Source: Bacteroidaceae bacterium
GTDB lineage: Bacteria > Bacteroidota > Bacteroidia > Bacteroidales > Bacteroidaceae
Assembly: GCA_017416735.1 (NCBI GenBank)
Contig: JAFQBF010000119.1
Span: forward strand, 1-41,539
Reading direction: 5' to 3'
DNA: 41,539 bases
The notes below the pieces were generated by a model. The model was not told the DNA's origin and did no database searches. It saw nothing but the letters and a program-made list of their open reading frames with translations. Positions 6,619-37,240 of this stretch are shown piece by piece. The position numbers were made by a program, and so were the translations under genes. Within the stretch, counting starts at the first letter, position 1, and every line of letters begins with the position of its first letter.

Positions 6619-6693
6619 TTCGCCACGGCGAAAATAAAATATGCCTTCGCAAAAATAAAATTCGCGAAGGCGATTTTTTAAATCGCCTTCGCG
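6619..6693 (-). terminator. Hairpin cluster after the winged-helix regulator gene
   Basis: A perfect 14-bp-arm hairpin with a TTT loop (6663-6676 / 6680-6693) lies 72 bp after the regulator stop. Read on the minus strand it is followed by AATTTTATTTTTG, so it can act as the regulator's terminator. A further arm, GCCTTCGC (6643-6650), can pair with 6664-6671 instead, and a small TTCGCC/GGCGAA hairpin lies at 6619-6632. Mutually exclusive pairings are therefore possible. Confidence 0.5.
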
Positions 6694-6764: not shown

Positions 6765-7724
6765 TCAAGAAACTATTTGTTCACCCATATAAGTCAAAGT
6801 GTAGTTATCCTCTCCTTTCAGGTCAATTTGATAGTCAGGAAAGTCTTTCAAGGCATTACGCAGGGTACAGAGAAGGTTACTCACCCGATTTTCCACACCT
6901 AATTCCTCCTTCCAAAAAGCACATCTTATTTCGTCACGCCTTAACATATGACCAGGTTTCTCCACAAACATCAACAAGAGCTGAAACTCTTGATTGCGCA
7001 ACTTACATTCCTTTCCATCAATCTTAAGTTTCTTTGCCTCCTTGTTTAGAATCATCTTGCCAAATTTCACTTTGTTCGGGTCTTCCACTTCCCAAGAAGA
7101 AAAAGAAACCCAAAGCATCACCCCTAAGAAGAGCAATAGACTCCAAAATGCGCCATCGTGCATATTCCTCACGACAAACCATGGAGAAGCGTCCACCCAA
7201 GCCTGCACGCTGACAGTTCTCTTGATATCGAGCACACGGGGGGCGGCTACATGCACAAACGGACGATGAATGGACAAGGAATCATTCAAACTGAACTGCG
7301 ATGCTCCATAATGAGTATAAACAATACCGGTATTGCTTCCCTTTATATATTTTTTCAGTTCTTTTTGTAAAAGAGCATTTAAAGTATCGGGATGGATTGG
7401 ATGGATTTTCGCCAGAAGATATTGAGTAGCCAATCGATTTGCTGTCGTTTCATCAATACTATCCTTAAATTCGAAGTTTTCTTCTCCTTTTTCCGTCACG
7501 ATGGTAACTCCTTTAACTTTCCGTCCCAATTGTCCTGTTGAAAGTTTCAACTCGGCATCGTATCTTTCCTGATAATCTTCCAAGATAGCCTCTTCCAATG
7601 CAACAGATACTGATGCAACAAGAGTCCTTCTTGCGTTCAGATACATATTGAAAAGCCCAAACACCAATGCAGCCCATAGCACATACAGCACCAGTTTCCT
7701 CATTAAAACAACCTTTTTTGTCAT
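6765..7724 (-). CDS. Membrane-anchored winged-helix transcriptional regulator
   Basis: 319 residues from the ATG at 7724. Layout: short cytoplasmic start; membrane segment about 10-28; extracytoplasmic domain about 30-189; second membrane segment about 190-208; then a C-terminal cytoplasmic winged helix (about 220-319) of the OmpR/PhoB C-terminal type, with ECKLRNQEFQLLLMFVEKPG and the recognition-helix region ENRVSNLLCTLRNAL. This is a one-component sensor in a ToxR-like sense, but with the DNA-binding domain at the C-terminus. It is divergent from two NVEALA peptide genes and a lipoprotein, so it probably regulates them. The in-frame ATG at 7772 is upstream of the apparent -7 box (7743-7750) and was rejected. 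ATG at 7703 is an alternative start. The signal sensed is unknown. Confidence 0.8.
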   Translation of the reverse strand: MTKKVVLMRKLVLYVLWAALVFGLFNMYLNARRTLVASVSVALEEAILEDYQERYDAELKLSTGQLGRKVKGVTIVTEKGEENFEFKDSIDETTANRLATQYLLAKIHPIHPDTLNALLQKELKKYIKGSNTGIVYTHYGASQFSLNDSLSIHRPFVHVAAPRVLDIKRTVSVQAWVDASPWFVVRNMHDGAFWSLLLFLGVMLWVSFSSWEVEDPNKVKFGKMILNKEAKKLKIDGKECKLRNQEFQLLLMFVEKPGHMLRRDEIRCAFWKEELGVENRVSNLLCTLRNALKDFPDYQIDLKGEDNYTLTYMGEQIVS

Positions 7725-7742
7725 ATTTTCACATTTTAGGTA

Positions 7743-7750
7743 CAAATGTA
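7743..7750 (-). promoter_or_regulatory. -7 box for the regulator gene
   Basis: Minus-strand TACATTTG, a perfect TAnnTTTG, 18 bp upstream of the ATG at 7724. No TTTG is present at the -33 position, which often goes with dependence on an activator. Confidence 0.5.
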
Positions 7751-7783
7751 TAATATTCCGATGAAATGGCACGTTTTTAGCAG

Positions 7784-7821
7784 CTTAAAAAGAATTTAAG
7801 GCACATTAAATTCTTTTTAAG
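7784..7821. promoter_or_regulatory. Perfect palindrome, candidate operator between regulator and NVEALA operon
   Basis: Two 16-bp arms (7784-7799 and 7806-7821; left arm CTTAAAAAGAATTTAA) are exact inverted copies around the 6-nt centre GGCACA. The element ends 8 bp before the TTTG box of the peptide promoter and lies 33 bp upstream of the regulator's -7 box. That is where an activator would sit for the peptide operon. That the adjacent regulator binds here is inference. Confidence 0.6.
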
Positions 7822-7829
7822 AGCAAAAG

Positions 7830-7861
7830 TTTGGTCACTATATCCACTATATGTAACTTCG
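7830..7861 (+). promoter_or_regulatory. Promoter of the NVEALA peptide operon
   Basis: TTTG (7830-7833), 20 bp, then TAACTTCG (7854-7861), seven of eight against TAnnTTTG. Predicted transcript start is near 7868, about 11 nt before the ATG at 7879. Confidence 0.55.
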
Positions 7862-7878
7862 AGAAAAAAACAGGAATT

Positions 7879-8109
7879 ATGAAGAAAAGCATTATGTTCG
7901 CAACAGCGATGATTGTAGTCGCAGGCACCCTTTTCACGAAGGCAAATAAAGAGACAAAAATGAGTGACACAGTATTAGCAAATGTGGAAGCATTGGCCCA
8001 GTCTGAAAAAATGGAAGATGGCTATTTTTGTTTTGGTACAGGTAGTGTTGTTTGTCCATATTCAGGAAAATTGGTAGGCGGTTATTTAAAAAAGCGTAAC
8101 CTAGAATAA
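7879..8109 (+). CDS. NVEALA-family small exported peptide 1
   Basis: 76 residues from the ATG at 7879. It has a basic start (MKK), a hydrophobic signal segment (about 5-19), then the conserved block MSDTVLANVEALAQSE, which contains the NVEALA signature of this Bacteroidota family. The variable tail carries two Cys (FCFGTGSVVCPY) and a basic end. The family has no established function. The layout, a conserved leader plus a variable Cys-bearing tail, recalls secreted peptide precursors, but no maturation enzyme is adjacent. It is the first gene after the promoter at 7830-7861. An in-frame TTG at 7831 lies inside the promoter and was rejected. Confidence 0.82.
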   Translation: MKKSIMFATAMIVVAGTLFTKANKETKMSDTVLANVEALAQSEKMEDGYFCFGTGSVVCPYSGKLVGGYLKKRNLE

Positions 8110-8131
8110 ACCGATTGTTGAACAATTATTC

Positions 8132-8207
8132 GAGAACCTCATAAAAAGCAGGGTGGAAAGAAACCGTTTTCTTTTGCCGAGAAAATTTCTTCCACCCCAA
8201 GGTTCTC
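8132..8207. repeat. Structured intergenic element between the two NVEALA genes
   Basis: Two nested stems: GAGAACCT (8132-8139) with AGGTTCTC (8200-8207), and GGGTGGAA (8151-8158) with TTCCACCC (8190-8197). Just downstream, AAAGGAGGTG (8213-8222) is an unusually strong Shine-Dalgarno-like sequence for this phylum. It precedes a four-codon frame (ATG at 8230, MDST). It may be an mRNA stabilising or attenuating structure, or a dispersed repeat. Confidence 0.5.
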
Positions 8208-8311
8208 CCACGAAAGGAGGTGTAAAGATATGGATTCTACTTGAATGACGCAAACAGTTCGTCACAAATATAATAATGTATAACAAGAATAACCCTTAAA
8301 AAAGAAAAATC

Positions 8312-8569
8312 ATGAAATCGAATATATTGAAATCAATGGCGGTTGTAGTTACCGCAATCTTTGCTGGATACAATGTGTATTTAGCACAAGCTGAAAAAAA
8401 TGCAATGTCTGACACTTTATTGGCAAACGTGGAAGCTTTAGCACAAAGTGAAGAAACTGAAAAAATATACTGCTGTGGTAATGTAGGTACTTGTATGATT
8501 GTTTATGATTCATCATTTAACAAAAAAGAAGTGGTAGGATTAAAATTTTCTACCCCTTGTCCTCAATAA
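8312..8569 (+). CDS. NVEALA-family small exported peptide 2
   Basis: 85 residues. Signal-like segment about 7-26, then MSDTLLANVEALAQSEE, nearly the same as in the upstream peptide, then a diverged tail with four Cys (YCCGNVGTC and CP near the end). The two peptides share the leader-like block but little of the tail apart from a G-x-C pattern, as expected if the tail is the functional, fast-changing part. It lies 202 bp after peptide 1, with a structured element between, and is followed by a hairpin and then a lipoprotein gene. Confidence 0.85.
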   Translation: MKSNILKSMAVVVTAIFAGYNVYLAQAEKNAMSDTLLANVEALAQSEETEKIYCCGNVGTCMIVYDSSFNKKEVVGLKFSTPCPQ

Positions 8570-8617
8570 ACCATTAAAACAAGTAGTGTTAAATCTGTTC
8601 ATTTAGAGTTAAACACA

Positions 8618-8655
8618 GGATGTGCCAAAATGTTCATGATATCTTTGACACATCC
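8618..8655 (+). terminator. Hairpin between NVEALA peptide 2 and the lipoprotein gene
   Basis: Arms GGATGTGCCAAA (8618-8629) and TTTGACACATCC (8644-8655), one mismatch, 14-nt loop, followed by TTTAA. The T run is weak, so it may be a partial terminator or attenuator lowering lipoprotein expression relative to the peptides. Confidence 0.5.
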
Positions 8656-8674
8656 TTTAACGCATTATTTAAAT

Positions 8675-9736
8675 ATGAAAAACATTATTATCAACTTATT
8701 TGCCTGTTCCCTTCTGTTAGGAGCTTGCGTAGGCAATAATTCTACAATCATTGATTCGCATTTCCATAAATCAGAACATTTGTCACAACAAGTAGACTTC
8801 CCTATAAGCGAAGATTCTATTGGACGAATAGAAGGTATTGTATGCGATGACAACAACTTGATCATTTACGATTTCCACACGGGGAATAGTTATACACTTT
8901 TTGATGCAGAAACAGGTGAGTACATATCTCGGTTTGGAACGATAGGGCAAGGCCCCGGTGAAATTCTTTTAGGTTGTTTTGGTTATTTATCCAATGGAAA
9001 TTTCCTCGTTTACAACAACAGCATGAGCCAAATTCTAGGATACAGAATGGATTCATTACGTAAAGAAAAACGTCCTATACCCGCCCAACGTTTGGCTAAA
9101 TACAAATTACCGGAAATGAACATTTCAAGAATTGTCCCGCTCTGCGACAGTCTATACATAGGTGGCGGATGTCATATCTCAGGTTCACAATACGCTTTAT
9201 TCGACAAGAATGGCAAAGTGCTTGACTATTCCATTGATACATATAATGCAAAAGATGCCTCATTCGACAAATTCACTAAATATTTGTCCAATCAAGGAGA
9301 CTTCGTCAAACACCCACATCAGAACAAATTTGCTTATAGCGTCAATTATTCATCTAATTTGGATTTCTTTGAAGTAAAAGATTCAAAAATCAAACCAATC
9401 AAATTACAACGTTGGAAAAATCCTGTTTTAAAATCTGTGGTTGAAGGTAACGGTACAATGTTTAGTGCTAATCCTACAGAAAAAACAGAAACGGGTTATA
9501 TAAATATCTGTTCTACTTCACAATATGTCTATGCCTTGCATTCCAATAAGCCGTTATACGAAAATTGGCGGAAATCAACAACAGTCTTAGTTTTTGACTG
9601 GGATGGTACACCTATAAAAAAATATATATTACCCCAAGAAGCGTATTATATTGCTGTGAATGAAAAATTACAGAGGTTGTATGCTGCGATAAAGAACAAA
9701 GACAACGGTTGGACAGTTGCCTGCTATGGAATATAA
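8675..9736 (+). CDS. Six-bladed beta-propeller (TolB-like/BF3164-type) lipoprotein
   Basis: 353 residues from the ATG at 8675. A lipoprotein signal (LLLGAC, probable lipid-bearing Cys in the low 20s) is followed by a beta-rich domain with propeller-like blades (for example DDNNLIIYDFHTGNSYTLFD) and the GTIGQGPGEI motif. The protein at 34002-35018 has a counterpart, MLGGGPEDF, and is a paralogue. This family often accompanies NVEALA peptide genes in Bacteroides, and its role is not established. Expected location is the periplasmic or outer face of a membrane. It is AT-rich compared with the flanking mnmA, suggesting an accessory module. Confidence 0.75.
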   Translation: MKNIIINLFACSLLLGACVGNNSTIIDSHFHKSEHLSQQVDFPISEDSIGRIEGIVCDDNNLIIYDFHTGNSYTLFDAETGEYISRFGTIGQGPGEILLGCFGYLSNGNFLVYNNSMSQILGYRMDSLRKEKRPIPAQRLAKYKLPEMNISRIVPLCDSLYIGGGCHISGSQYALFDKNGKVLDYSIDTYNAKDASFDKFTKYLSNQGDFVKHPHQNKFAYSVNYSSNLDFFEVKDSKIKPIKLQRWKNPVLKSVVEGNGTMFSANPTEKTETGYINICSTSQYVYALHSNKPLYENWRKSTTVLVFDWDGTPIKKYILPQEAYYIAVNEKLQRLYAAIKNKDNGWTVACYGI

Positions 9737-16022: not shown

Positions 16023-17366
16023 ATGAAACAATTTTTTTACTTATTACCATTGATTTGTGCTTTATTAGTCGTTGGACCAATCGAAGCCAAGAAGAAGAAA
16101 TATCCTAATGGAGATTATTATGAGGGTGAATGGAAAAAAGGCGCACCACATGGAATTGGTACTATGAAATATGCCAATGGAGATGTATATACCGGGAATT
16201 GGGAATTAGGTGAGAAAAATGGACATGGCATTTTGAAATATAAAAATGGAGACACATATGATGGGAATTGGGTAAGAGGAATAAAAAGTGGACGAGGAAT
16301 CATGAAATATGCTAACAAGAATGTATATGAAGGGAATTGGGTATCAGGAATGATAAACGGTCATGGAATTATGAAATATGCCAATGGAAGTGTATATGTT
16401 GGTATGTGGCAAAATGGGAAAAAACATGGGCAAGGCAGTATGTCTACCAACGGATTTAATCAGAACTTAGAAACAGGTGAATGGAGTAACGATAAACTAT
16501 ATAACGGTAAAGCAATCAAAGAAACCCAATTAGGGCAAGCAATAACAGAATACAAAGTAGGTTTAGGAAAAACTTTCTTAAAAAATAAAAATGATGGTTG
16601 GGAATTTAAAGGACAAATATCGGACAATTATCAACCTCTTTTGGGAACAATAACAAAAGGAGATCACAAGATATTTATAAACAATTATTCGGGAAAGTAC
16701 ACTGCAACCTTATATTTTAAGAATGGAAGTAAAGAATTCGAAGAGATACCATCGCCCAATGAAGCAAGTGATTTTAAAAAATGGGTAGCTTCCACTTTCT
16801 TAAAAATAGCAAACACAGATGTGAAGAACGATCAGATTTTGGCACAAGAAAGAGCTAAAGCAGCACAACAAATAAAAGAATTTGAATTACAGAAGAAGAA
16901 AGAAGAAGCTGAAATGAAAGTGCGAGAAGCTGAAATAAATAGAAGCAGAATGATCAATCAAATCCCACATTATATTTGGGAAGCAACAGATATTCGTTCG
17001 GCCTATGAAAATAATCCAGCAAGATTCAGAAGCCTTACTCAAAATAAATATGTAATTATCGGAGGAACGATTGCGGATATAGATGAATCAAAAAATTTTG
17101 AGTATAGCCAATTATGGCAAGATTGGGTTGAATATAAATACTATACAATCCGGTTGTCAGGTGGAGTTTACTTTGAATCAAGAGATGCAGAATTCGTTTC
17201 CAACTTAAATAGGGGACAAGAATTATTATTTGTTTGCTCGTATACCGATGAACAATATTTCAATCGACCACTTTTTGATTTGAGAATGTATGCTGGTAGT
17301 ACTCAAGGTATCATCAAGTTAATGTTAGACAATGGCATATCACTCTCCAAGTTAGTTAAAAGATGA
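16023..17366 (+). CDS. Exported MORN-repeat protein with coiled coil and OB-like C-terminal domain
   Basis: 447 residues. Signal peptide about 1-22. Five MORN repeats of about 23 residues (about 32-146; pattern YANGDVYTGNW...GHGI), which fold as an open beta-sheet and often bind membranes or lipids. A charged coiled coil, rich in Lys, Glu and Ala, lies near residues 275-310. The C-terminal part (about 315-447) has YENNPARFRSLTQNKYVIIGG followed by beta strands, resembling the tRNA_anti-like (OB) domain of exported bacterial proteins; that is inference. It follows the membrane-protein gene by 62 bp, with a possible own promoter. AT-rich like its two neighbours. Confidence 0.85.
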   Translation: MKQFFYLLPLICALLVVGPIEAKKKKYPNGDYYEGEWKKGAPHGIGTMKYANGDVYTGNWELGEKNGHGILKYKNGDTYDGNWVRGIKSGRGIMKYANKNVYEGNWVSGMINGHGIMKYANGSVYVGMWQNGKKHGQGSMSTNGFNQNLETGEWSNDKLYNGKAIKETQLGQAITEYKVGLGKTFLKNKNDGWEFKGQISDNYQPLLGTITKGDHKIFINNYSGKYTATLYFKNGSKEFEEIPSPNEASDFKKWVASTFLKIANTDVKNDQILAQERAKAAQQIKEFELQKKKEEAEMKVREAEINRSRMINQIPHYIWEATDIRSAYENNPARFRSLTQNKYVIIGGTIADIDESKNFEYSQLWQDWVEYKYYTIRLSGGVYFESRDAEFVSNLNRGQELLFVCSYTDEQYFNRPLFDLRMYAGSTQGIIKLMLDNGISLSKLVKR

Positions 17367-33946: not shown

Positions 33947-34005
33947 AAGTACAAACCCGTGTCTTTGCAATCTGTGTACAGGTAAGCAATAAAAAAATAG
34001 TATGA
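33943..34005 (+). CDS. Micro-ORF 2 (20 codons), possible leader peptide
   Basis: Encodes MKVQTRVFAICVQVSNKKIV, mildly hydrophobic in the middle with basic ends. Its start overlaps the stop of micro-ORF 1, and its stop (34003-34005) overlaps the lipoprotein ATG (34002), both as ATGA. Two such overlaps in a row suggest that translation of the lipoprotein is coupled to these frames. Confidence 0.38.
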   Translation: MKVQTRVFAICVQVSNKKIV

Positions 34006-35018
34006 AGAAAAATATAATCCTTGCCTATTTGTCTATAACACTTCTGTCATACACTTCCTGTTCGAAGAATGATGAAGTAGAAAGACTTACAACCGAACCG
34101 ACAATGGTAAAAACGGAGTTAATGACCTCAATGCCAGGAGAACTCTTAGTTGTAGAAGACAGACTTGTATGGTTCGACCTCAACGCTGATTCTTTCCTCC
34201 ATGTTGAAAATGCAACGACTGGAGAAAATATTCTGGAAACAGGAATGTTAGGTGGAGGACCTGAAGATTTCACTGCACCATTTATCTCGTGGTATCCCAA
34301 TAAAAGAGTATTGATTTCGGATTGCTTTGCCGAACGCGCAATGGTTTTATTCTTGGAAAAAACGGGCAAAATGAGCCATTTGGACATTCCTTTCTCCAAG
34401 AAATCCTTGCAATGCGTTGGCGAAAACCAATATATCCAAAGTAATATTGACGGAAGCCATCCTTTTATTTACTGGAACAATAATACCAAAAATACATTCG
34501 GAAAATATCCGTTGGAAAATGAAGAGATAAGCAATGCCAATGAAGTGTTTCAAGGAATCCATTCCTACAATCCCTACAATGGTTATTTGATTCAAAGTTT
34601 TCCTGAATTATCCCACATAGCACTTTACCAATTTGTGGAGGGAAAATTTAGAGAAGTTTGGACAAAAGAACTACCTGGGTTAGAATATCAAATAAACCGG
34701 GATAGAATATTAAGAATCAACGAAGTACGAAATCCAGCTCCTAGTGCCATTGCACTAACCAAGGATTATATCGTTACAATAGACAGAGACAAACAAACAA
34801 AGGAAACTACTGCTGAAAGCCACTCAAACAATCGCTTTCTACGCAATTTTTCCAAATCACCCCAAACTTTATTTGTCTATGATTATAATTTCCAACTAAA
34901 AAGAATCATACACACCCGCATCCCAATGTTCAGATTGGCAGCAAAAGGGAATGACAATGTTGTCTATTTCATAGGTGTTAAAGATGAATTTTGCATCGCA
35001 AAATGTAGATTGGATTAA
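34002..35018 (+). CDS. Six-bladed beta-propeller (TolB-like/BF3164-type) lipoprotein, second copy
   Basis: 338 residues. Lipoprotein-type signal (LLSYTSC, probable Cys20). Beta-rich propeller-like body with MLGGGPEDF, corresponding to the GQGPGEI motif of the protein at 8675-9736, and similar blades (LISDCFAERAMVLFLEKTG; LFVYDYNFQLKRI). The two are distant paralogues. No NVEALA peptide is found here; two micro-ORFs precede it instead. AT-rich compared with argS. A strong hairpin terminator follows the stop. Function unknown. Confidence 0.75.
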   Translation: MKKNIILAYLSITLLSYTSCSKNDEVERLTTEPTMVKTELMTSMPGELLVVEDRLVWFDLNADSFLHVENATTGENILETGMLGGGPEDFTAPFISWYPNKRVLISDCFAERAMVLFLEKTGKMSHLDIPFSKKSLQCVGENQYIQSNIDGSHPFIYWNNNTKNTFGKYPLENEEISNANEVFQGIHSYNPYNGYLIQSFPELSHIALYQFVEGKFREVWTKELPGLEYQINRDRILRINEVRNPAPSAIALTKDYIVTIDRDKQTKETTAESHSNNRFLRNFSKSPQTLFVYDYNFQLKRIIHTRIPMFRLAAKGNDNVVYFIGVKDEFCIAKCRLD

Positions 35019-35416: not shown

Positions 35417-37240
35417 TTACAATTTACTAATAGCTCCATCCAACCATTGAAGCTTTTCTTCGTATGCTTTTCTCATTCTTTTCACGGCTTCTTCATAGTT
35501 CATCGACTCATCGCCATTTACGGTTTGGGTAATAGGCCACATCAAATGGTTCATCTTTTCGGATGGGCTAATTCTTTCACCTTCACTTTCAATGAATGCT
35601 GAAATCTTGTCAAACTCGGGTTTCAACAACGCCCAACGTTCTTTGACTCTTGCAACGAATGTAGAGTTTTGGAAAAGTCTCGGATAATACAATGCTCCTT
35701 TAACAGTAAAACCGGCTCCTGGCAGGAATGTACCCCAGTCAAAATCCCAGGCAGGCCCTGCTTTTAATTTGCCAAGCTTGTCTTTTACCATATAGGTGCT
35801 TTTCGGATGGCCGGGTTCACCATTTTCTGCCAATTCGTGTACAAACCACCAATCGATGTATGAGTCAATGTCCATATATTCCATAAACTTACCGGCAGCC
35901 AGCTCTTCATCGTTGTAAAGAGAGACTTCCATCGTATTGATGTAGTTTTGCATATAAGCAAATTGCTGTTCATTCACTTCATCCGGGTCTTTGAACATAT
36001 AAGGAAGTTGACGGATGGCAGACTTGAACTTGTTCACTTCGTCATAATAAACATCGAGTTCCATAATATATCCGCCTGTGATGTCATCACCTTCGGTAGC
36101 ATCTTCATCCAATTCGTTGATGTTTACACGGTTCTTGTCTACTTTGATATGTTCGCAAAGGTAATAGTTGCCGATATGCTTACCGTTCAAGATTACATCC
36201 ACAAATTCTCCGTGAGGATTCCAATCAAGCCCTGTGGAATTGGCTATTTGGAAAGCAACCCGATTGCGAAGTAAAGTTCTGTCCATCCAGTTAGCCAGCA
36301 ATACCCATCTCTTGTGCTTCGGCATCCCAAGAATTTCAGACTTTTCATCCAGTTTCAGTGCGTATGGCTTCTTAGGATAAGCCCAAGTGGAATTACCGCG
36401 ACCACGGATGCTGGTTGTTCCTGCGTAGTCTTCTGTGCCGTCAGGATTAAGAATAGTGATAGTTGCTTCTTCCAACCAATCTTCGTGTTTGCTGGGGATA
36501 GTAGCTTGATTAGGAGTATCAATGATAACAACCGGAAGCCCCGAATATGATAATGTAACCGTATAAGTTTCTTCATTACCTTGTGCAGAAACAACCTTAT
36601 AACTAACGGGTGAAGAAAAGTCATTGATAGTGACAGAACTTTCTTGCTCTATACCATCAACGAGGACCTTTTCAGCATTGCTCTCGAAGCTGGCTTTCAG
36701 TTGTGGTTTGCTAATAAATGGAGTGCTGATTTGAATTTCATTACCTTCAATAACGACATCAATATCCTTCAATACGGCTCCAGAATTGTTTTCCTTCAAG
36801 AATGAAAAAGAGAACAAGGAAGTTCCCGAAAAATAGATATCAATCGGAGTTGATTGAATTTTTGTCATATCTTCATTAGTTATAACAAAAATAAATTGCT
36901 CCTTGTAATTCTCGGACAACTTAAGGTCCGTAATAGTAGCTTGGTATCTTCCTTTCTTTCCCGATACAGGCTCAACCTTCGTCAATCGGTAATTCTCATC
37001 GCCGGAATTGATAATTTCCAACTTTATTTGGCACTCAGGAAGAGATACGTCATAATTGAATACGGCATCCTCCGGAGTTACACTGAATTCGATGATGTTT
37101 TCCAATCCACTTCCCATAACCAAATTCTGAGTGGACAAGTCGCCGATACTAGCTGGAACACTTGGCACGTCATCATCGCTACACGCCGTAATCAATGCCG
37201 TACACAAACAAAACACATAGTAGAATAAGTATTTTTTCAT
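35417..37240 (-). CDS. CotH-family lipoprotein
   Basis: 607 residues. Lipoprotein signal with ALITAC (Cys20) followed by SDDD. The N-terminal half (about 25-235) holds two beta-sandwich domains, including a stretch ending in the SYKVVSAQGNEETYTVTLS pattern common in Bacteroidota surface proteins. The CotH kinase-like domain (about 240-600) has RGRGNSTWAYPKKPYALKL, KRWVLLANWMDRTLLRNRVAF, GNYYLCEHIKVDKNRV and AWDFDWGTFLPG. CotH proteins in spore coats phosphorylate other proteins; in Bacteroidota the role is not known. It is preceded by a roughly 340-nt structured leader that probably controls it. Confidence 0.9.
   Translation of the reverse strand: MKKYLFYYVFCLCTALITACSDDDVPSVPASIGDLSTQNLVMGSGLENIIEFSVTPEDAVFNYDVSLPECQIKLEIINSGDENYRLTKVEPVSGKKGRYQATITDLKLSENYKEQFIFVITNEDMTKIQSTPIDIYFSGTSLFSFSFLKENNSGAVLKDIDVVIEGNEIQISTPFISKPQLKASFESNAEKVLVDGIEQESSVTINDFSSPVSYKVVSAQGNEETYTVTLSYSGLPVVIIDTPNQATIPSKHEDWLEEATITILNPDGTEDYAGTTSIRGRGNSTWAYPKKPYALKLDEKSEILGMPKHKRWVLLANWMDRTLLRNRVAFQIANSTGLDWNPHGEFVDVILNGKHIGNYYLCEHIKVDKNRVNINELDEDATEGDDITGGYIMELDVYYDEVNKFKSAIRQLPYMFKDPDEVNEQQFAYMQNYINTMEVSLYNDEELAAGKFMEYMDIDSYIDWWFVHELAENGEPGHPKSTYMVKDKLGKLKAGPAWDFDWGTFLPGAGFTVKGALYYPRLFQNSTFVARVKERWALLKPEFDKISAFIESEGERISPSEKMNHLMWPITQTVNGDESMNYEEAVKRMRKAYEEKLQWLDGAISKL

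Follow-up and report, generated by a model that had tools for sequence, protein, structure and literature searches.

What does a membrane-bound regulator control when it stands back to back with two short exported peptides and a propeller lipoprotein? This question is raised by a 41,539-nt stretch of DNA from a Bacteroidaceae bacterium (GCA_017416735.1, JAFQBF010000119.1; hereafter the window, which is contig C49 of a 2.56-Mb genome in 199 contigs). Here the gene for a one-component regulator, which we call REG, diverges from two genes of the NVEALA family (PF14055) and a gene for a six-bladed-propeller lipoprotein. The original prediction, made from the letters of the window alone, regarded the locus as a possible self-contained circuit in which a peptide would be sensed by the regulator across the membrane, and the lipoprotein would act as exporter partner, receptor or immunity factor. 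Our analysis partly supports this interpretation. The locus is best explained as a constant switch module (REG plus one conserved peptide, class A) together with exchangeable cassettes of a hypervariable peptide (class B) and its propeller, which would be regulated weapon-immunity or signal-receptor pairs.

Results

Both peptides of the window belong to the NVEALA family, exceeding its cut-off of 27 bits with 44.4 and 40.4, and their nearly identical blocks (MSDTVLANVEALAQSE in the peptide at 7879-8109, MSDTLLANVEALAQSE in that at 8312-8569) are followed by Cys-bearing tails that differ, as had been noticed at first sight. Using patterns and profiles of our own, we divided the family in two: class A, which is linked to the regulator, and class B, which is hypervariable. 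A wider census comprised 57 REGs and, among the matches listed, 150 NVEALA genes, 35 of which were class A, 113 class B and two neither. A REG lay within 2 kb of 31 of the 35 class A genes vs 26 of the 113 class B genes (this limit and the limit of 8.2 kb used below were set by hand). As for the other class A genes, L142 adjoins a REG for which just a 108-aa ORF was found (a fragment excluded from the count of full-length REGs), the contig of L202 measures 3.7 kb, L153 has next to it a weaker REG-like gene not listed by the census model, and no REG was found within 2 kb of L159. Seen from the regulator, 35 of the 57 REGs have an adjacent NVEALA gene, which is class A in 32 and class B in three, and 22 have none; the 32 class A-linked genes comprise 24 divergent ones and eight same-strand ones immediately downstream. 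The class A tails span 29-44 residues, share the pattern C.g.G.v.Cp..g.KV, and contain two Cys (30/35) or else three. Class B tails range from 28 to 90 residues, and single linkage groups the 109 distinct tails into 73 families, whose representatives have an even number of Cys in 55 cases, an odd number in 17 and zero in one. Class B peptides probably hold disulfides. Thus, the two peptides, which had been taken as equivalent, are not: class A goes with REG and class B with the propeller, and we reject a single circuit with two equal peptides.

The second of these associations can be best illustrated by comparing tails with propellers across genomes. A propeller gene is found at most 900 bp downstream of 93 of the 113 class B genes, and 88 non-redundant pairs remained after five near-copies were dropped. 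Tail and propeller are strongly correlated among these pairs (Mantel r = 0.68, the maximum of 3000 permutations being 0.107) vs 0.035 for leader and propeller. Moreover, the propellers were similar in all 30 cross-genome pairs with similar tails, compared with 24 of the 3676 other pairs; the 30 concordant pairs span 14 tail families (counted by hand). The thresholds were set after an earlier analysis of 46 pairs, and 21 of the 30 concordant pairs involve loci added later, again by hand count. Among the 15 class B genes lacking a match to the propeller model despite sufficient room, six are then followed by a DUF4221 or DUF5128 lipoprotein, and the other nine are mixed, with short or transposase-like ORFs next (by eye) or no partner seen. 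The partner lipoproteins tested belong to three Pfam families, namely BF3164/TolB_like (PF15869), DUF5128 and DUF4221. These findings make it quite likely that each class B tail is functionally matched to the adjoining propeller as a cognate pair.

The window also suggests that the two units have separate histories. For its REG (207/304) and class A tail (22/35), the nearest counterparts are those of G616, the closest relative, whose class B peptide and propeller are unrelated, whereas its class B tail (21/34) and propeller (172/347; 166/337 by BLASTP) match those of G606. The REG of G606 is a fragment, and that of its near relative G605 matches the window REG in 91/288. Because the units match different genomes, the REG/class A unit and the class B/propeller unit evidently move apart from each other, as judged from these alignments.

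Propellers also occur alone. No upstream peptide gene was detectable for 58 of the 196 propellers of at least 280 aa, a count that excludes nine propellers with less than 1000 bp upstream and 30 with a hidden NVEALA-like frame and includes REG-adjacent ones; 22 of these 58 orphans are similar to a paired propeller of another genome. One orphan (34002-35018) is encoded in the window itself, with no NVEALA-like frame in the 1200 bp upstream and no Pfam match at 0.001. It is 67% (228/341) identical to a propeller of G616 whose partner is a different class B peptide, and 56% to a G613 propeller that is itself paired (L198). For the propeller of the window operon, G594 encodes a relative at 39% that likewise lacks an upstream NVEALA-like frame (plus-strand rows were used for this check). 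Propellers retained in the absence of their peptide would resemble orphan immunity genes; receptors could look alike.

How the switch may work is indicated by the DNA between the divergent genes. In 20 regions upstream of NVEALA-linked REGs, direct repeats reach a combined z of 4.7 at lag 11 and 10.3 at lag 22; in 18 regions upstream of other REGs the values are 9.3 and 8.4, and every other lag gives z between -2.9 and 3.4. The repeat unit depends on the subgroup, being TTTAAGG-like in the window group, TTTCAG in many NVEALA-less REGs, and CTAAGG or GTCAGC elsewhere. Toward the divergent gene, T[AC]AG is followed by TTTG after exactly 8 nt in 12 of 36 non-redundant loci and after 19 nt (8 + 11) in 10, other spacings occurring 0-3 times; on the opposite strand the 8-nt arrangement was seen in none of the 36. 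In a larger set of 48 loci, the counts were 10 and 8, respectively. Near-duplicate upstream regions had been dropped (four from the spacing count, two from the lag analysis). The half-sites of the candidate operator in the window are spaced by 11, 10 and 11 bp, and the segment is also a perfect 16-bp inverted repeat. The Bacteroides-type -7 consensus is TAnnTTTG. From the repeat core to the TTTG box of the divergent gene it is thus exactly 8 nt in a third of these 36 loci, which makes REG a probable activator of the peptide operon. An activator of the PhoB type overlaps the upstream core promoter element, and the placement of the repeats is what such an activator would be expected to show. The fixed spacing thereby backs the proposed link between regulator and operon. 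It points solely to the divergent gene, and autoregulation as the main role of the repeats is disfavoured. The 8-nt motif was present upstream of six of 31 class A genes and none of 74 class B genes; because it is unseen upstream of the latter, transcription of the operon probably starts at the class A promoter. An imperfect inverted repeat with 13-nt arms (77% complementary) lies between both peptide genes of the window at 8151-8198, and could set the ratio of class A to class B.

Is class A the signal that REG reads? In 28 non-redundant pairs, the class A tail covaries with the REG sensor when the winged helix is allowed for (partial 0.22, permutation p = 0.0005), and the leader does not (partial 0.075, p = 0.11). 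This covariation weakly supports the class A tail as a ligand of REG.

The conserved linkage that the original prediction called for proved not to be unique to this genome, but recurs in the genus and at single loci beyond it. In 61 genomes of the genus, a profile search gave, among the matches listed, about 40 full-length REGs and NVEALA genes in 34 genomes; 21 of the 40 full-length REGs examined have a divergent NVEALA gene within 1.5 kb. Named carriers of REG include Phocaeicola vulgatus ATCC 8482, P. sartorii, P. faecalis and P. massiliensis. In P. vulgatus ATCC 8482 (NC_009614), REG occupies 98189-99187 on the plus strand, and the minus strand encodes a class A peptide (97714-97935), the thioredoxin-like lipoprotein described below (96844-97710), a class B peptide (96354-96602) and a propeller (95171-96265). 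At the level of the family, a single-protein search (E 1e-15) found REG relatives in 12 of 301 genomes, and at the level of the order NVEALA was present in 17 of 295 genomes, 14 of them over the cut-off. REG stands beside a class A-like peptide in other genera of the family (L036, L163) and in another family of the order (L164, L165); at L166, from a third family, no REG was seen. No phage-borne relatives were confirmed among the viral contigs searched.

The peptides may be processed by enzymes encoded nearby. Among the 150 S26 signal peptidase rows in the matches listed, 28 of 48 stand-alone genes have a listed NVEALA gene within 8.2 kb vs two of 102 members of housekeeping pairs, both in one genome; an earlier subset of 99 of these rows gave 24/42 and 1/57. 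The NVEALA block sits some way from the hydrophobic core of the peptide and ends in an AxA-type ALA, and Glu occupies position +3 past it in 34 of 35 class A and 93 of 113 class B peptides. Because the block ends in ALA, with Glu at +3 and S26 genes linked, cleavage at NVEALA is plausible, and we give an even chance to the idea that type I signal peptidases, some of them cluster-linked, perform it. Export by a C39/ABC system is rejected for these peptides, as none of 71 C39 peptidase matches lies within 100 kb of a listed NVEALA gene.

A number of NVEALA clusters contain a signal peptidase I gene of about 290-300 aa (L030, L153, L154, L155, L159, L162, L163 and L165; one was tested by Pfam, and the rest were recognised by eye or from the S26 listing). 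Such clusters also encode large proteins that match, mostly weakly, the transglutaminase core and/or F5/8 type C (L030:12606-14459, L162:2996-4060, L203:3443-5392). In addition, the gene next after class A often encodes a lipoprotein that combines a thioredoxin-like N-terminal part (by eye) with a DUF1573 domain (L030:8610-9476 and similar).

Architecture of the locus

The features of the window are collected in Table 1. The open reading frame of REG extends over 6765-7772 on the minus strand (335 aa), with the probable ATG at 7724 yielding 319 aa. Its hydrophobic segments (residues 5-23 and 191-209) are separated by 167 residues, and the winged helix (residues 253-312 of the 335-aa frame) follows both of them, matching PF00486, the OmpR/PhoB-type DNA-binding domain, with 31.5 bits vs a cut-off of 26.2. 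This family was the only one over its cut-off in the Pfam profile search, in which no receiver domain was found. The winged helix is nearest to PhoB/ArlR-type domains, and PDB profile matches include PhoB. The two membrane segments and C-terminal winged helix read from the letters were thus borne out. So was the propeller lipoprotein: its frame (8630-9736) gives a lipoprotein signal when started at 8675 (lipobox LLLGAC, by eye), and reaches 78.7 bits with PF15869 (cut-off 29.2), PF17170 being passed narrowly as well. The same genome contains eight NVEALA matches, 15 TolB_like matches (11 over the cut-off) and two more strong REG paralogues. Elsewhere in the window, a MORN-repeat protein (16023-17366, plus strand) and a CotH kinase domain protein (35417-37240, minus strand) are encoded.

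Table 1. Coordinates of the regulator, its candidate control signals, the peptide operon and the orphan propeller in the window
Feature	Position	Strand	Basis or remark
Terminator-like hairpin behind REG	6663..6693	-	14 pairs, 8 GC; consensus match only
REG, membrane one-component regulator	6765..7724	-	two transmembrane (TM) segments, ~167-residue extracytoplasmic domain, C-terminal PhoB/OmpR-type winged helix
REG -7 box, Bacteroides-type, perfect, TACATTTG	7743..7750	-	match to TAnnTTTG consensus
Candidate operator	7784..7821	.	four TTAA half-sites at 7785, 7796, 7806, 7817
Class A promoter, -7-like box, imperfect, AAAGTTTG	7826..7833	+	TTTG exactly 8 nt past last T[AC]AG
Class A NVEALA peptide	7879..8109	+	76 aa; conserved tail type CxGxGxVxCP
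Class B NVEALA peptide	8312..8569	+	85 aa; hypervariable Cys-rich tail
Six-bladed-propeller lipoprotein (TolB_like PF15869), putative partner of class B peptide	8675..9736	+	Pfam match and lipobox
Orphan propeller lipoprotein	34002..35018	+	67% identical to G616 partner of a different class B peptide

Discussion

We suggest that the locus is a regulated exported-peptide system in which exchangeable peptide-partner cassettes stand behind a constant switch, with immunity as the favoured role of the partner, a reading to which we give close to an even chance as a whole. Its parts differ in strength. It is rather likely, on the evidence of the repeats, that REG, anchored in the inner membrane, binds the 11-bp direct repeats between the divergent genes and, in the manner of PhoB, switches on the peptide operon. 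Class A, a conserved two-Cys peptide travelling with REG, would be the best candidate for the signal sensed by the extracytoplasmic domain of REG, which we consider possible but short of likely. Class B would be one of many hypervariable peptides, its tail matched to its own propeller, and signal peptidases, some of them encoded in the clusters, would cleave the peptides at the NVEALA block. The propeller may then protect the producer, or carriers of orphan propellers, from the class B peptide, so that class B and propeller form an exchangeable weapon-immunity cassette behind the constant switch; this has, in our judgment, somewhat less than an even chance. It would be tempting to go further and propose a hitherto unrecognised class of inter-bacterial antagonism or kin recognition in gut Bacteroidales, comprising hypervariable disulfide peptides cut at NVEALA by dedicated signal peptidases, cognate propellers serving as immunity proteins or receptors, and an inverted-ToxR-like REG that reads a conserved sister peptide as pheromone. 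This idea is speculative, and we consider it unlikely.

Several observations weigh against the proposed system. The fixed-spacing motif is present in a third of the loci, the rest having other repeat units or none clear. The class A tail also covaries with the winged helix when the sensor is allowed for (partial 0.11, p = 0.034). Class B tails are acidic, with a mean net charge of -2, unlike most membrane-active bacteriocins. Twenty of the 48 stand-alone S26 matches lie away from any listed NVEALA gene, the window cluster has no signal peptidase gene (those of the genome lie on C65 and C68), no route across the outer membrane was identified, and no C39 transporter was found near a cluster. Co-travel through linkage alone could explain part of the tail-propeller matching. 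Finally, class A is missing from a well-supported clade of 15 REGs, and five of its members adjoin a divergent gene of 397-402 aa, the one tested being AhpC-TSA/Redoxin.

Because of this clade, some of whose members stand beside redoxin-type genes, REG may sense redox or envelope state. In the strongest alternative, REG senses the redox or protein-folding state of the periplasm, a disulfide-stress response has class A and the thioredoxin-like/DUF1573 lipoprotein as its outputs, and class A would serve at most as a redox-sensitive co-factor. Such a role would also suit the frequent position of that lipoprotein after class A, and the presence of Cys in all 35 class A tails and 108 of the 109 distinct class B tails. 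However, 32 of the 42 REGs outside the clade are linked to class A, the sensor covaries with the class A tail and not with the leader, and the window has no match to a thioredoxin-like/DUF1573 model. We therefore regard this alternative as unlikely, though it is the one that fares best.

The role of the propeller allows two further alternatives, each less probable. The propeller could be a receptor, surface-display or adhesion partner of class B, serving signalling or kin recognition instead of immunity. Strict tail-propeller matching and orphan propellers are equally expected of ligand-receptor pairs, and the class B tails are not only acidic but diverse; yet class B nearly always occurs with a partner while propellers are often alone, an asymmetry usual for immunity genes, and we consider a receptor doubtful. 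It is slightly less probable again that each class B peptide has in its propeller a dedicated partner for folding, maturation or release. The propeller's regular place within 900 bp downstream and the recruitment of partners from three Pfam families would fit this role, but orphans lacking a substrate gene, including the one in the window, would be unexpected. That tail and propeller are merely co-inherited neighbours, moving together because they lie within 900 bp, with recombination in the leader alone giving the pattern (leaders are alike within genomes, median 0.59 vs 0.40 between), is improbable given the concordance of all 30 similar-tail pairs in 14 families and the orphan propellers, which show that the genes do separate. 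With regard to the roles offered for the lipoprotein in the original prediction, immunity factor or receptor thus has strong but indirect backing from matching and orphans, and nothing specific favours an exporter partner, the nearest candidate for processing linked to the clusters being a signal peptidase.

The proposed system would give a concrete and testable role to a peptide family for which none has been described, make the partnering of lipoproteins with peptides predictable, and supply a family of transmembrane regulators with a promoter code. Since it is present in Phocaeicola vulgatus ATCC 8482, it is decidable by ordinary gene deletions. Were the immunity reading true, gut bacteria would have here a widespread system of competition; were the receptor reading true, the system would exemplify peptide signalling in a phylum from which little of the kind is known.

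Comparison with known systems

In the literature searched, we found no paper under the name NVEALA, no link between the propeller families (PF15869, DUF5128, DUF4221) and NVEALA peptides, and no description of the REG-peptide-propeller layout. The titles listed for PF14055, on Plasmodium or malaria and on enzyme profiles, probably reflect a clash of identifiers. Searches on propeller, BF3164, regulator, bacteriocin and pheromone gave nothing relevant among the matches listed; part of PMC12578637 concerns propellers of the BAM complex.

With regulators of the PhoB/OmpR type, REG shares the winged helix, and 11-bp direct repeats, its candidate binding sites, abut the core promoter; no receiver domain was found in it. 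In ToxR and CadC, an N-terminal winged helix is followed by one TM segment. REG is likewise a membrane-anchored one-component regulator, but it has neither the N-terminal winged helix nor the single TM segment, its winged helix being C-terminal, past two segments.

Further parallels in overall layout are found with peptide-regulated class II bacteriocin loci, which comprise peptides with a double-glycine leader, a C39 peptidase/ABC exporter, immunity genes and a peptide-regulated kinase pair. NVEALA clusters share with them a leader block common to conserved and hypervariable peptides, matched partners, orphan partners and a dedicated regulator. They differ in having no C39/ABC exporter nearby, in the hydrophobic N-terminus and acidic tails of the peptides, and in the use of a propeller lipoprotein in place of a small immunity protein and of a one-component regulator in place of the kinase pair.

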